From assembly GCA_015233395.1 (NCBI GenBank), contig JADFXV010000002.1:72425-113368 (forward strand): DNA of 40,944 nt. The letters run 5' to 3'. Source of the stretch: Desulfovibrionaceae bacterium (GTDB lineage: Bacteria; Desulfobacterota; Desulfovibrionia; Desulfovibrionales; Desulfovibrionaceae). Numbering within the stretch: the first letter of the stretch is position 1; each line of letters begins with the position of its first letter. The notes under the pieces are model-generated. The model did no database searches. It was not told the origin of the DNA and was given only the letters and a program-made list of their open reading frames with translations. The translations under genes were made by a program, and so were the position numbers. This document shows positions 2,785 to 38,393 of this stretch, piece after piece.

Positions 2785-2824
2785 AACGCCCGGAAACGAT
2801 TTTATATGAATAAGCCCCCACCTT

Positions 2825-2906
2825 GCCGAGGGGGTCCGGGGGGGATCATCCCCCCCGGCGGGGGAGTCCAGAGGGGGCGGCGCCCCCTCTGGCGGAGCCC
2901 CTTTGG
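2825..2906. repeat. GC-rich palindrome array, copy 1
   Basis: Two near-perfect palindromes lie here: 2836-2846 with 2848-2858 (11-bp arms, CCGGGGGGGAT) and 2868-2878 with 2882-2892 (11-bp arms, CCAGAGGGGGC, loop GGC), with GGAGCCCCTTTGG just after. The same order of modules appears in reverse orientation at 21535-21635, with different but still complementary arm sequences. The array ends directly before the ribosome binding site of the radical SAM gene at 2919, so it would be in that gene's 5' leader if transcribed. Confidence 0.7.
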
Positions 2907-2918
2907 TTGGAGCATGCC

Positions 2919-4193
2919 ATGGCGGGCGACATTGTCAGGCCCAAGTTGGTTTACGCCGATGCATCGGGCGACATCTACGACGATCCCGATTTGGAGATGC
3001 TCGTGCGCAACGGCCGCGAGCTTATGCCGCCCCGGCCGGGCGACTGGATCCCTTTGCCGCCGGAGAGCGAATTTTTTCTGCTTCCGGGCCGGCGGGCGGT
3101 GGGACTGGACCCGGAAACCGGCGAGCTTGAAGCCGTGGACGGCCTGGCCGTGGCCGCGTTCGTCTGTCCGGGCTACACGTTGACCGGCCTGGCCGCCTTT
3201 GTCCGAGAACCAAACGCCCCGGTATTGCCGCTGTTCGCATACGGGGCGCTCGGATTTTTGAGAGACAGGTTTTACGTCTGCGCCAAACGGATCGACACGG
3301 ACGCCCGACAGGTCTTTCGCGGCATACCGGACCGCAAGGTCCAGGAAGGCGCTACGGCGCTCTTGAAGCGGTTTCCGGACAACCGGCTGATCCGCCACCT
3401 GTCGTCGTGCGCCCTCACGTATTGTTGTCCGGCGGCGCGCAATCTCGCGCTCGGCCGTTTCGAGGCGCCGCTGCCGACCGCAACCGCCTGCAACGCCGCC
3501 TGCGTCGGCTGCATCTCCCTGCAAGAGCCCGGAAGCGGCTTTCCTTCGACCCAGAATAGGATCGCGTTTACGCCGAGCCCGGCTGAAGTCGTCGCCGTCA
3601 TGCGGGCGCACGCCGAGCGCGAAAGGAGGCCGGTTTTTTCCTTTGGCCAGGGTTGCGAAGGCGAACCGCTCACACAAAGCGCCGTGATCGCCGAAGCGAT
3701 CGCCGCCTACCGCGCCGGCGGCGGCAAGGGCACGATCAACATGAACACCAACGCCAGCATGCCTCTACGCCTGCCCGCCCTGGCCGGCGCGGGGCTCGAC
3801 AGCGTGCGCGTGAGCTTAAACAGCGCCCGGGCAAGCGTGTACGAGGCCTATTACCGGCCCAAGGGATACACTTTCGGGGATGTCGCCGCCTTCGCCAAGG
3901 CGGCCAAGGATGCCGGGCTGTACGTCTCGCTGAACTATCTCTACCACCCGGGCGTAAGCGACACCGAGGACGAAATCGCCGCCCTCATCAAGCTGGTGAC
4001 GGACTGCGAAGCCGACCTGATCCAGATGCGCAACTTGAACATCGATCCGGATCTGTACCAGGACGTGCTGGAAAAAGCGGGCGCGCCGGCTCAAGCGGCC
4101 ATGGGATTCGCCAATTTCACCAAACGGCTGCGAAAAAATTGCCCCTGGACGAGCTTTGGCTACTTCAACCCCTACCTGGCACCGCTTTCCTAA
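2919..4193 (+). CDS. Radical SAM protein
   Basis: A 424-residue radical SAM enzyme. The [4Fe-4S]/SAM motif is Cys191-x3-Cys195-x2-Cys198 (CNAACVGC), placed unusually far from the N-terminus after a domain of about 180 residues that I do not recognise. Downstream features of the partial TIM barrel include FSFGQGCEGEPL (SAM-contact region), a GGKGTINMNTNAS strand and VRVSLNS. Additional cysteines precede the cluster motif (SSCALTYCCP), possibly ligating a second cluster (inference). The start at 2919 has TTGGAG at 2907-2912; an open frame to 2823 exists but runs through a palindrome array and is rejected. The 3' end overlaps purM on the other strand by four bases. The substrate is unknown, and neighbouring genes do not suggest one. 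Confidence 0.85.
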   Translation: MAGDIVRPKLVYADASGDIYDDPDLEMLVRNGRELMPPRPGDWIPLPPESEFFLLPGRRAVGLDPETGELEAVDGLAVAAFVCPGYTLTGLAAFVREPNAPVLPLFAYGALGFLRDRFYVCAKRIDTDARQVFRGIPDRKVQEGATALLKRFPDNRLIRHLSSCALTYCCPAARNLALGRFEAPLPTATACNAACVGCISLQEPGSGFPSTQNRIAFTPSPAEVVAVMRAHAERERRPVFSFGQGCEGEPLTQSAVIAEAIAAYRAGGGKGTINMNTNASMPLRLPALAGAGLDSVRVSLNSARASVYEAYYRPKGYTFGDVAAFAKAAKDAGLYVSLNYLYHPGVSDTEDEIAALIKLVTDCEADLIQMRNLNIDPDLYQDVLEKAGAPAQAAMGFANFTKRLRKNCPWTSFGYFNPYLAPLS

Positions 4194-9134: not shown

Positions 9135-9150
9135 TGTTTCACGTGAAACA
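9135..9150. promoter_or_regulatory. parS: parS centromere site 1
   Basis: TGTTTCACGTGAAACA is a perfect match to the universal 16-bp bacterial parS palindrome bound by ParB. It lies 116 bp before parA. Confidence 0.95.
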
Positions 9151-9160
9151 ATGACCTCCT

Positions 9161-9176
9161 TGTTTCACGTGAAACG
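9161..9176. promoter_or_regulatory. parS: parS centromere site 2
   Basis: TGTTTCACGTGAAACG matches parS at 15 of 16 positions (last base G for A). Its centre is 26 bp from that of site 1, about two and a half helical turns, with a 10-bp spacer. Confidence 0.93.
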
Positions 9177-18584: not shown

Positions 18585-18660
18585 CTGGGTGAAACTTTTT
18601 TCAAAAAAGTTTCACCCAGAAGGGCGCCTTGCCCCCAGCCCCCCCTTCCAAAAATTTTGC
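18585..18660. terminator. Long hairpin plus tail between convergent genes
   Basis: A perfect 17-bp inverted repeat (18585-18601 with 18603-18619, arms starting CTGGGTGAAAC and T-rich towards the loop) begins 13 bases after the lipoprotein stop. It is followed by a C-rich stretch and CCCCCCTTCCAAAAATTTTG (18640-18659). It may serve both the mla operon and, from the other side, the FAD gene ending at 18707. It is the second of four such elements; a partial match to the 38-bp repeat (CGCCGGAGGCGTTA) follows at 18666. Confidence 0.65.
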
Positions 18661-20445: not shown

Positions 20446-21519
20446 CTATTGTTTCTCGGTGGACTTGGTGAGCAGGGTCACGTTGCCTTTGGTGAAGAAC
20501 CCGTCGAAGCCGTCGTAGCGGGTGATGTATTCGTTGACCAAGAACGTCGTGGGCGACATTGTGGAGAAAATCTGCTTGAGGCCTTCTTCGCGCGACCCGA
20601 TCAGATCCGAAAGAAAGTCCAGGCCGTCCCGGGCGAGGCCGGCGACCGCGTCTTCGATGCCGCGCGTCTCAAAGGCCAGGTGGTGGGCGCGGGTGTTGTA
20701 GTTGTAAATGAATTTCTCGGTCGGACCGGATTCTTCCAGATTCCGAAACGGCGCGATCCCGGAAGTGAAGACCTGGGCGTAGTCGCCGGGCGAGAGCCTG
20801 GCCACGCTGGTGATGGAATTGAGGCTTTCGACGTAGACCGCGAAGGCGAAATCGTAATTGGTCAGGCCCATGAATTCCAGGATGGCCGCGTCGCGCTCCT
20901 CGGCGCGCACCCGGGTGGCCACATGGTCGAGCCGGCCGATGCCCGCGAGATACGCCTTGTTCGGCTTGACCAAGTCAAGCGGCGTATCCTTGGCCCCGGA
21001 CGTGGCGTAGCTGCGCCGCGCGCCGGATTTCCACTGCACGTAGCCGATGGAATTGCCGGTGAACGCCGACGGCGCGGTCTGGATGAAGCGGCAGCCCGGG
21101 CGGTCAAGCACCCTGTTCGACAGAAAAGCCACGCCCCGGCCGCGCTGCAGCAGGGCGAGCCGGGGCGCGTCCGGACTTGCAAAGACAAAAGTCTCCAGAC
21201 GCGCGTTCGGCATGGCCGCGGTCTTGGGCCCGGCGTTGGCCGCCGCGAAAGGGTTTACCCCGCCCTTGCGGGCCGTCACCAGAATGTCCGCCGAGCCCGG
21301 CAGCGACAGCACGCAAACCCGCCGCTCCCCGTCCTCGAAAGCCTCGGCGACGCCGTAGCCGGTAAAAGCCAGCATCTCGCCGACAGTAGCCTCGAAATTG
21401 ACCGGCTCGGTATTGATCACGACATGATCGAGCCCGCCGACCAGCCCGCAAAGCCCGGCCGCCTCGCGCTCCTCAAGCACCCGCGCCGCACCGCGCCGCA
21501 GCGCCCCGTCGTCGTTCAT
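20446..21519 (-). CDS. HPPD-like VOC-family metal-dependent dioxygenase
   Basis: A 357-residue protein with two vicinal-oxygen-chelate domains. The C-terminal half matches the layout of 4-hydroxyphenylpyruvate dioxygenase (HPPD). I can place all three metal ligands: His199 (RLDHVATR), His280 (AHHLAFET) and Glu355 (in KSTEKQ, aligning with the HPPD ligand in the terminal helix). The N-terminal domain (about 29-140) starts GLDHVVINT. HPPD uses O2 and a 2-oxoacid to make homogentisate. The core motif EGLKQIFSTMSPTTFLVNEY departs from typical HPPD, so the substrate may differ. The start ATG 21519 has AGGGAGG six bases upstream. No homogentisate pathway gene is nearby. Confidence 0.8.
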   Translation of the reverse strand: MNDDGALRRGAARVLEEREAAGLCGLVGGLDHVVINTEPVNFEATVGEMLAFTGYGVAEAFEDGERRVCVLSLPGSADILVTARKGGVNPFAAANAGPKTAAMPNARLETFVFASPDAPRLALLQRGRGVAFLSNRVLDRPGCRFIQTAPSAFTGNSIGYVQWKSGARRSYATSGAKDTPLDLVKPNKAYLAGIGRLDHVATRVRAEERDAAILEFMGLTNYDFAFAVYVESLNSITSVARLSPGDYAQVFTSGIAPFRNLEESGPTEKFIYNYNTRAHHLAFETRGIEDAVAGLARDGLDFLSDLIGSREEGLKQIFSTMSPTTFLVNEYITRYDGFDGFFTKGNVTLLTKSTEKQ

Positions 21520-21534
21520 AACCGGCCTCCCTTT

Positions 21535-21635
21535 GGCCAGGGGGCGCTGCCCCCTGGAGCCCCGCCAAAGGGGCTCCGCCCCTTTGGATTCCCCGCCGGG
21601 GGCCATGATGGCCCCCGGACCCCCTCGACAGGGGG
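21535..21635. repeat. GC-rich palindrome array, copy 2
   Basis: Three perfect palindromes in series: 21537-21557 (9-bp arms CCAGGGGGC, loop GCT), 21565-21587 (10-bp arms CCAAAGGGGC) and 21596-21618 (11-bp arms CCGGGGGCCAT, one-base loop), plus CCCCCT/AGGGGG at 21620-21635. The reverse complement follows the same module order as 2825-2906. The arms differ in sequence but remain self-complementary. It abuts the ribosome site of the VOC gene on the minus strand. Confidence 0.7.
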
Positions 21636-21680: not shown

Positions 21681-21748
21681 AAGTTTTTTTGGGAAAAGGG
21701 GGTTCGGGGGAAAAACCCTTTTTGTTCACAAAAAGGGTTTTTCCCCCG
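21681..21748 (-). terminator. Long hairpin plus conserved tail after the flavin oxidase gene
   Basis: A perfect 21-bp inverted repeat (21705-21725 with 21728-21748, 2-nt loop) lies 32 bp past the stop of the GlcD-type gene in its direction. Its core CCTTTTTGTTCACAAAAAGG also occurs in the 27982 element. On the minus strand it is followed by CCCCCTTTTCCCAAAAAAAC (21683-21702 on +). Confidence 0.65.
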
Positions 21749-21779
21749 ATTCCTCTTCCTCTCCCCTCTCTCCCCATGC

Positions 21780-27767: not shown

Positions 27768-28050
27768 GAATCCCCCTCAAAAAAACATCGGAATTTCGGC
27801 CAAAAGGCGAAATCCCGTCGCAACCAGAAAAATAATCAGCGCGAGGCGGCTTGTCAACAAACCCCGGGCGCAAACGCCCGCGTAGCGAAACCCAATAAGG
27901 TTATCGCCCTCATGATATTCCACACCGCAAACCGCGAGGAATCGACCCTCGCCGATGAAAGTCTTTTGGGAAGGGAGGAGTTCGGGGAGGGAAACCTTTT
28001 TGTTCACAAAAAGGTTTCCCTCCCCGATCTCTCCCCTCTTCTCTCCCCGC
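27768..28050. other. Gap of 283 bp with one hairpin
   Basis: No gene is supported here. The part nearest FmdB is unremarkable AT-richer sequence that may carry its promoter, though I can pick no clear -10/-35 pair. The rest is taken up by the hairpin element described separately. Confidence 0.5.
27957..28027 (-). terminator. Long hairpin plus conserved tail after the 36-residue gene
   Basis: A perfect 22-bp inverted repeat (27982-28003 with 28006-28027, 2-nt loop) lies 24 bp past the stop of the small basic protein, in its direction. It shares the core CCTTTTTGTTCACAAAAAGG with the 21705 element. The tail on the minus strand is CTCCTCCCTTCCCAAAAGAC (27961-27980 on +). Confidence 0.65.
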
Positions 28051-34973: not shown

Positions 34974-34984
34974 ATTTTGGGGTT

Positions 34985-35006
34985 CCAGGGGGCGCAGCCC
35001 CCCTGG
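34985..35006. repeat. Short GC palindrome between gyrB and gyrA
   Basis: CCAGGGGGC, then GCA, then GCCCCCCTGG, starting 12 bases after the gyrB stop and ending 21 bases before the gyrA start. It matches one module of the large palindrome arrays (2868 and 21537). Confidence 0.6.
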
Positions 35007-35027
35007 TCTTATCACCAGGAGACACGA

Positions 35028-38311: not shown

Positions 38312-38393
38312 GCGCACAGAGCCGGGACCGCGCCTCGGACCCCCTCGTCAGGGGCGGGCCGCCATGCCGGAAATGTTCTCCCCGGATCTTCTC
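38312..38393. other. Gap between convergent genes with a repeat remnant
   Basis: CGGACCCCCTCGTCAGGGGC (38337-38356) matches the end of the palindrome array at 21617-21635 (CGGACCCCCTCGACAGGGGG) with few changes. It may act as a weak two-way terminator. Nothing else is seen. Confidence 0.45.

Follow-up and report, generated by a model that had tools for sequence, protein, structure and literature searches.

Intrastrand triplex repeats are a known kind of element, best studied as boxC/PIT of E. coli, and Maher's group is said to have done earlier work on the E. coli repeats called boxC, PIT or TM-ECO. The family reported here differs from them in class, variability and arrangement. In the main text of PMC4666352, from which the triplex classes and the purine-motif code used below are taken, boxC/TM-ECO has the class II order with the pattern CCCTCNCCC-N3-6-GGGNGAGGG-N3-GGGNGAGGG; these repeats of E. 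coli and other proteobacteria are the closest known kind to ours. A single strand of the E. coli motif folds into a triplex in vitro, as seen by CD and NMR; footprinting in cells showed no triplex, and double-stranded DNA did not fold in this way (PMC4666352). That main text contains neither 'covari' nor 'compensat'. Like boxC/PIT, the present repeats are dispersed, intergenic and G/C-rich, with purine-motif intrastrand triplexes predicted from sequence, they form close inverted pairs combining two different types, and their copy number differs sharply between close relatives (PMC4666352). In contrast to the class II order and the one highly conserved sequence of boxC/PIT, they show the class I order of linker, purine arm and pyrimidine arm and many co-varying arm types, and several modules are joined into arrays (PMC4666352). 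Their module end faces gene ends, whereas the same text reports no distance trend for the E. coli motif, and their hosts are a family with Desulfovibrio-like members plus a Magnetococcales MAG (PMC4666352). Judged by block order and class counts, they do not belong to boxC/TM-ECO.

REP, BIME and CGTC-tagged REPs, as presented in the accessible text of PMC3733652, share with our repeats palindromes of 20-40 bp, mosaic arrays, inverted heterodimers and a location mostly near gene ends, and the CGTC group resembles them in that no dedicated transposase was found. H-DNA mirror repeats share the purine mirror repeat and the purine-motif triads, but need no inverted repeat, whereas here a hairpin follows the mirror repeat. 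In the open-access literature we found nothing on this repeat family or on triplex covariation, and the accessible text of PMC4060949 contains no 'desulfo' and no sign of the family.

The window, that is, the whole stretch of DNA that was analysed (40,944 nt), belongs to a 3.37 Mb draft genome in 158 contigs, the source genome. It contains array 1 at 2821-2906 on the plus strand and array 2 at 21537-21635 on the minus strand, which have a common order of left C-run/G-run mini-hairpin, hairpin A and hairpin B. Hairpin A has the pattern CCGGGGG NN ATCAT NN CCCCCGG in both arrays. The features, with the evidence in brackets, are as follows.

2815-2834, plus strand: C-run/G-run mini-hairpin at the left end of array 1 (sequence; paired in the DNA fold)
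2830-2834, plus strand: G-run of array 1, part of the mini-hairpin and also linker (candidate third strand) of hairpin A
2836-2858, plus strand: hairpin A of array 1, CCGGGGGGGATCATCCCCCCCGG (sequence, DNA fold, family pattern)
2859-2867, plus strand: linker of array 1, CGGGGGAG+T, which mirrors the 5′ arm that follows, GAGGGGGC (sequence and mirror tests)
2868-2892, plus strand: hairpin B of array 1, CCAGAGGGGGCGGCGCCCCCTCTGG (sequence)
2893-2906, plus strand: 14-nt remnant of a third module of array 1 (sequence)
2919-4193, plus strand: radical SAM family gene adjoining array 1, called start ATG 2919
21617-21635, minus strand: left end of array 2, CCCCC-TGTCGA-GGGGG-TCC (sequence, DNA fold)
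21620-21624, minus strand: G-run of array 2, linker of hairpin A
21596-21618, minus strand: hairpin A of array 2, CCGGGGGCCATCATGGCCCCCGG (sequence, DNA fold)
21588-21595, minus strand: linker of array 2, CGGGGAAT, whose GGGGAA mirrors AAGGGG of the next arm
21565-21587, minus strand: hairpin B of array 2, CCAAAGGGGCGGAGCCCCTTTGG (sequence, DNA fold)
21558-21564, minus strand: linker CGGGGCT of array 2 (sequence)
21537-21557, minus strand: hairpin C of array 2, CCAGGGGGCAGCGCCCCCTGG, the third intact hairpin (sequence, DNA fold)
21526-21532, minus strand: AGGGAGG, likely ribosome site of the gene with ATG 21519 (sequence)
20446-21519, minus strand: gene adjoining array 2, without Pfam match, with homologues in 16 other genomes
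34979-35006, plus strand: single module GGGGTTCCAGGGGGCGCAGCCCCCCTGG in the gyrB-gyrA gap, with an imperfect stem (six C versus five G)
38336-38355, minus strand: fragment consisting of a left end and the first bases of an A unit (GCCCCTGACGAGGGGGTCCG)

When the arrays were folded as single-stranded DNA and compared with shuffled sequences, array 2 stood out (z -5.6, 0/200 shuffles as good), array 1 did so modestly (z -2.75, 4/200) and the single module at 34978-35020 was unremarkable (z -1.3, 23/200). In an Rfam scan of the window the sole match at the gathering score was a tRNA, and the arrays matched no curated RNA family. The original prediction had described two arrays with a common module order, arms that differ between copies and stay complementary, single modules at 34985 and 38337, and array ends directly at a ribosome site. 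The order is right, with array 1 truncated so that its third hairpin is only the 14-nt remnant, and the quoted arms are correct and complementary within each copy. The module at 34985 is real though imperfect, whereas 38337 holds the left-end fragment and no full module. Both large arrays stop a few bases short of a plausible Shine-Dalgarno sequence with its start codon, ATG 2919 for array 1 and, on the minus strand, ATG 21519 for array 2; the scripted start of the gene at 20446-21519 was 21606, inside array 2, but the ribosome site favours 21519. What had been missed is that the linker is a third covarying segment, that units pair in inverted orientation and that hairpin cores are swapped in place.

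Collecting copies genome-wide, as had been proposed, gave 135 exact matches of the hairpin-A pattern in the source genome (64 forward, 71 reverse) and 0 of the reversed-pattern control; a similarity search with array 1 gave 78 aligned matches, some of which are a second match to one copy. Nine module patterns were then applied to 796 kb on 12 contigs, with genes called by a simple script, and yielded 164 matches, 155 intergenic and 9 coding. These fall into 75 clusters, 39 of which hold 2-5 modules, mostly of unlike types. Many A units are inverted pairs about 60 bp apart, the halves often having different arms, and several palindrome types in alternating orientation make up a BIME-like mosaic. 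In the same 796 kb, a separate palindrome, CCAAAGGGCGCAGCCCTTTGG, occurs with its variants in 16 copies, each the sole one in its cluster.

Of 288 genomes from the taxonomic family of the source genome, 55, in 15/44 genera, carry the A pattern, with copy numbers uneven inside genera; in a phylum sample outside that family, 0/114 genomes had a match. Among the matches listed, arm preferences are lineage-specific (AA/TT, GA/TC, AG/CT or GC). With a longer A pattern, the matches listed include MAGs labelled Desulfovibrio, Mailhella, Solidesulfovibrio, Proteobacteria and Deltaproteobacteria and also, unexpectedly, two Magnetococcales MAGs. The window probably stems from a Desulfovibrio-like host. 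Loci of the Magnetococcales C5_bin.1 have a median identity of 35% to source-genome proteins (21 hits on 35 loci), compared with 50% for the Desulfovibrio MAG Ct408_bin78 (23 hits on 22 loci), which makes it unlikely that C5_bin.1 is a mislabelled Desulfovibrio bin; horizontal spread is one explanation for the Magnetococcales copies. The C5_bin.1 loci (among L200-L278) and L206 of nWRX3bin6 carry the same A unit and module grammar outside Desulfovibrio relatives, and the former often have a common left flank like AAACAAAGTTTGGCAAAAATTATTGC. The A pattern is also present in four viral contigs (L424-L427).

The two arms of the hairpins co-vary. When A copies were chosen by the left arm alone, both variable stem pairs were complementary in 78/83, in six pair combinations, against a shuffled expectation of 27.2 on average (sd 3.9, maximum 41). 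A search with fixed GGGGGTCC and GGCCGCCGGAGGC and a free interior found copies in 11/59 relatives (reversed control 0), and among the matches listed most interiors are hairpins differing widely in sequence and length. The 113 fixed-flank elements have 58 distinct interiors, 32 of which reach 80% or more end-to-end pairing, compared with 0.4% of shuffles; on our reading of the list, many of the other 26 are two tandem hairpins, which the end-to-end score misses. Of the hairpins with no more than a single mismatch (463), 418 pair perfectly. The compensatory change of the original prediction is real, recurrent and beyond shuffles, and structure is the most economical reason for it.

On its 5′ side each hairpin has a purine linker, which tends to mirror the hairpin's 5′ arm, as in GGAGGGGG-T-CCA-GGGGGAGG and GGGGAGG-T-CCA-GGAGGGG, whose hairpins have A in the purine arm. 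This was scored on 64 rows that have a stem of 8 or more, a purine arm 6 or longer in which an inner A occurs, and two or more purines followed by a spacer with T; they represent 16 arm types, each counted once. In the mirror register 21/26 arm A positions lie opposite A or T in the linker, compared with 0.281 when linkers were permuted (0/5000), the 16 types sharing descent and so not being independent, and one five-way tie being resolved by order; for two of the 16, none of the A positions matches. The direct register gave no signal (0.269 versus 0.256 permuted). In a test on distinct rows, the mirror value was 0.624 versus 0.318 permuted (0/2000) and held separately in the source genome (12/2000), in genus g25 (5/2000) and in the rest (0/2000), whereas the direct value, 0.330 versus 0.296, was reached by 427/2000 permutations. 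With equal offset freedom, arms unlike their own mirror scored 5.76 of 7 in the mirror register (permuted 5.05, maximum 5.34 in 1000) and 5.00 in the direct register (permuted 4.89, maximum 5.26). Mirror was favoured in 11 of 14 asymmetric arm types, direct in none, and three were equal, the T-containing spacer that fixes the linker side in this test and in that of the 16 types having been picked after viewing the hairpin list. The loosest scan, with a free spacer and no chosen side, retained the mirror excess (4.55 versus 4.09 when dealt anew, maximum 4.22) and had a weaker direct excess (4.26 versus 4.05, maximum 4.20); the likeness between linker and arm is therefore in part not specific to the mirror register.

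The length of the linker G-run also tracks that of the arm G-run (rho 0.70, n=235), and the letters between the linker G-run and CC track the number of A in the arm: T in 67/99 hairpins with no A and in 52/61 with one, AT or TT in 22/40 with two, and ATT or TTT in 30/35 with three. The 51/235 hairpins without an A/T letter at this place are tentatively taken as the other side of the hairpin. T opposite an arm A is weakly enriched over T opposite G (4/52 versus 4/214, p 0.05), but C opposite an arm A is similarly raised (p 0.08), and the use of T.A-T is therefore not proven. In the Magnetococcales C5_bin.1, 29/30 second-module linkers match the arm and 27/30 3′ arms are its complement; we rejected these loci as a replicate of the mirror signal, since GGGG and GGAGG are their own mirror image and thus reveal that linker and arm co-vary but not in which direction.

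In sequence terms, a class I purine-motif intrastrand triplex is marked by a mirror repeat that leads into an inverted repeat, and the modules consist of three consecutive blocks, joined by short loops, whose letters follow the purine-motif code. We searched for class I motifs with a second loop of up to 9, where the published finder has up to 6 (PMC4666352). With stem 6, 796 kb of the source genome contained 81 class I motifs versus 3 in one shuffle, alongside 12 of class II, 27 of class III and 5 of class IV; with stem 8 there were 9 versus 0. At stem 6 the search gave 30 versus 0 in 500 kb of the element-rich genome G024, and 0 versus 0 in 100 kb of its congener G296, which has a single A match. 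Hairpin A itself offers only about five candidate triads.

Linker and arms co-vary, and therefore it is the foldable shape, not the sequence, that persists. We consider the arrays to be, with a probability of roughly 0.68, a dispersed mosaic DNA repeat in which a foldable class I purine-motif intrastrand triplex shape is kept rather than a sequence. The joint change of the linker and both arms by the purine-motif code in several genera suggests in addition, at even odds, that a DNA intrastrand triplex, not the hairpin only, is selected in living bacteria. A module would run purine linker-T-CC(A)-5′ purine arm-loop-3′ pyrimidine arm, as in GGAGGGGGT-CCA-GGGGGAGGC with its 3′ arm. Once the strand is exposed, the arms would pair and the purine linker would fold back antiparallel into the major groove, the predicted triads being G.G-C, A.A-T and possibly T.A-T. 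Such a triplex might form in replication or transcription and stall or mark the strand; repair copied from another family member could then replace the hairpin core, conversion would homogenise variants within a genome, and selection would remove copies unable to fold. The repeat may also be selfish, or neutral, and simply exist at sites where it is tolerated.

The repeat is a shape-conserved, sequence-variable and positionally stable DNA element. Its evolution in place was followed in two species, G024 and G290, whose contigs share about 94% identity in their first 100 kb. The orthologous set excludes a coding chance match (site 140775), an unresolved interval (site 211185), 47 clusters without orthologous flanks and one that was not contiguous. 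At all 13 resolved sites the element is present in both species; the strict pattern had missed the partner at 3/13, where alignment reveals it with a substitution. At five of the 13 a perfect hairpin is replaced by another perfect hairpin: three are swaps of cores (GATCATC/CCTCAGG, CCTAAGG/GATGATC and CGTGCCG/CCTGAGG), and the other two concern a whole B module with its linker and the repeat units of a tandem array. One further site has a perfect versus an imperfect core, and the remaining sites have single uncompensated changes or none. Over 12 sites, leaving out the tandem array at 191255, substitutions numbered 1/132 in the tail tag, 4/94 in the linker and 18/230 in the hairpin, and in the flanks 25/180 (-15 to 0, left), 98/1020 (-100 to -15) and 39/588 (+11 to +60), the linker rate being not clearly lower than that of the right flank. 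Positions are thus inherited and the tail tag conserved, whereas the cores turn over in a compensated fashion. The core swaps are most simply explained by gene conversion between copies, and the mirror linkers by selection for foldability; gene conversion without selection could also account for the in-place swapping. At G024 site 191255 a 22-bp hairpin module (CGGGTCACGGGCAGCGCCCGTG) is repeated in tandem; this array is longer than its G290 counterpart and includes an arm variant.

Of the two ends of a unit, the module-bearing one lies closer to a gene boundary in 23/28 single units of the source genome (p 9e-4), a called gene overlapping the tail in two of the 23 and one of the five misses (tail 1369, left -1193) being a gene-call fault. 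The same holds in 74/96 units of other genomes (p 9e-8), the 96 loci including two double counts (G082, G083). In the source genome (n=50) the module side faces a stop codon in 29 cases and a start codon in 21. Stops and starts are faced alike, so the position of the window arrays at ribosome sites is one of two usual placements, and a specific link with such sites is not supported. Clusters with a called gene on both sides (n=73) occupy 43 tandem, 20 convergent and 10 divergent gaps, while the 796 kb have 471, 87 and 84 such junctions, respectively; convergent gaps are enriched over tandem ones (20/87 versus 43/471, p 6e-4).

Modules close to gene ends, the 21/50 tails that face a start codon and the enrichment of convergent gaps could also be expected of RNA hairpins in 5′ or 3′ UTRs, working as leader regulators, stabilisers or terminators. 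Selection on RNA structure should favour G.U. However, on the presumed transcript strand of intergenic hairpins with at most one mismatch, whose tail lies no more than 250 bp from a called gene end, we counted 13 G.U, 13 A.C and 19 other mismatches, the 26 informative ones (G.U plus A.C) giving limited power. The element strand flips relative to transcription between start-facing and stop-facing copies, no T-run follows the hairpins of either window array, and divergent gaps are not avoided (10/84). At the inspected homologous genes of other genera, the upstream 300 bp held no array, either for the gene-2919 homologue (29 other-genome loci) or for the 20446-21519 homologue (17 loci in 16 genomes); many of these genomes are without the family, which makes this a weak argument, but five genomes of the gene-2919 set (G008, G015, G024, G028, G031) have A units elsewhere. 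UTR hairpins are quite an unlikely explanation on these grounds. The original prediction had allowed RNA or cruciform DNA, and maintenance at the DNA level is favoured over leader RNA, because there is no G.U excess and the purine-motif triplex is stated in the main text of PMC4666352 not to form in RNA.

Hairpin-only repeats of the REP/BIME type, possibly REPINs spread by a RAYT transposase with the linker as an unpaired tag, would account for the high copy number, the intergenic location, the inverted pairs about 60 bp apart with unlike arms per half and the patchy copy number within genera, and both REP dimers and transposase-less CGTC REPs are described in PMC3733652. This reading is nevertheless improbable, since a constant unpaired tag should not co-vary with the arms as the linker does, mirror-wise. 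The GTAG tag of REPs is absent: A units are preceded by GGGGGT, as set by the pattern, and among the copies listed mostly come after GA or GC, with CGG or TGG mostly next. Stems of CGTC REPs start with AT (PMC3733652), whereas the commonest stems here start with CC or CT, and GACGC/GCGTC occurs only in the spacer between paired units. RAYT mobilisation is not supported: of two Y1 proteins in the source genome one scores 27 bits against the RAYT model, whose cut-off is 80, and the other does not match it, and Y1 transposases were found in 9/22 genomes searched but not in G288 (117 A matches) or G082 (40). The element also keeps its place at 13/13 resolved orthologous sites. A by-product of GC-rich slippage and gene conversion, arising without selection on folding, would explain that many modules are plain G-runs, that cores are exchanged between copies, that variants are lineage-specific among the matches listed and that the loosest scan finds direct-repeat likeness too. 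We regard it as highly unlikely, because the repeats that copying produces are direct or inverted rather than mirrored, fixing the linker side leaves no signal in the direct register, and conversion, which spreads existing combinations, leaves the mirrored linkers in most arm types unexplained. The linker and 5′ arm do make up the purine-rich mirror repeat that H-DNA requires (PMC4666352), and the inverted repeat might then be secondary to folding in supercoiled double-stranded DNA; yet H-DNA does not need the strictly complementary 3′ arm, and this reading is very improbable indeed.

For the class I triplex reading, a family in which three segments change together would be rare evolutionary evidence that a triplex hairpin may matter in living cells. 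The relevance of the triplex in the cell is open for the E. coli repeat, whereas the present family varies, and largely along the triplex code. With such covariation, the question can be put to the test through comparative genomics and through compensatory mutants, single, double or triple, in a laboratory strain.

Other elements were seen in the source genome and the window. At a contig end (L061, G000:C156) lies an IS200/IS605-type transposase with a long reading frame downstream, which we take to be TnpB-like, and a 117-aa reading frame (L062, G000:C115) matches an IS200-type transposase over the second part of the model only. A second family of long hairpins, with A/T and G/C blocks mixed (GGGGGAAAAACCCTTTTTGT..ACAAAAAGGGTTTTTCCCCC), occurs in the window at 21696-21757, 27972-28037, 2649-2688 and 18585-18619; two copies are preceded by AAAGT and a T-run, and several source-genome copies likewise have mirror-image linkers. 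A polarity of the repeats along the replichores was rejected, as the fuller copy listing has mixed strands. At 9136-9175 the window holds two copies of GTTTCACGTGAAAC, which presumably resembles the parS site of ParB, and with gyrB and gyrA in the same window, it may lie near the replication origin.
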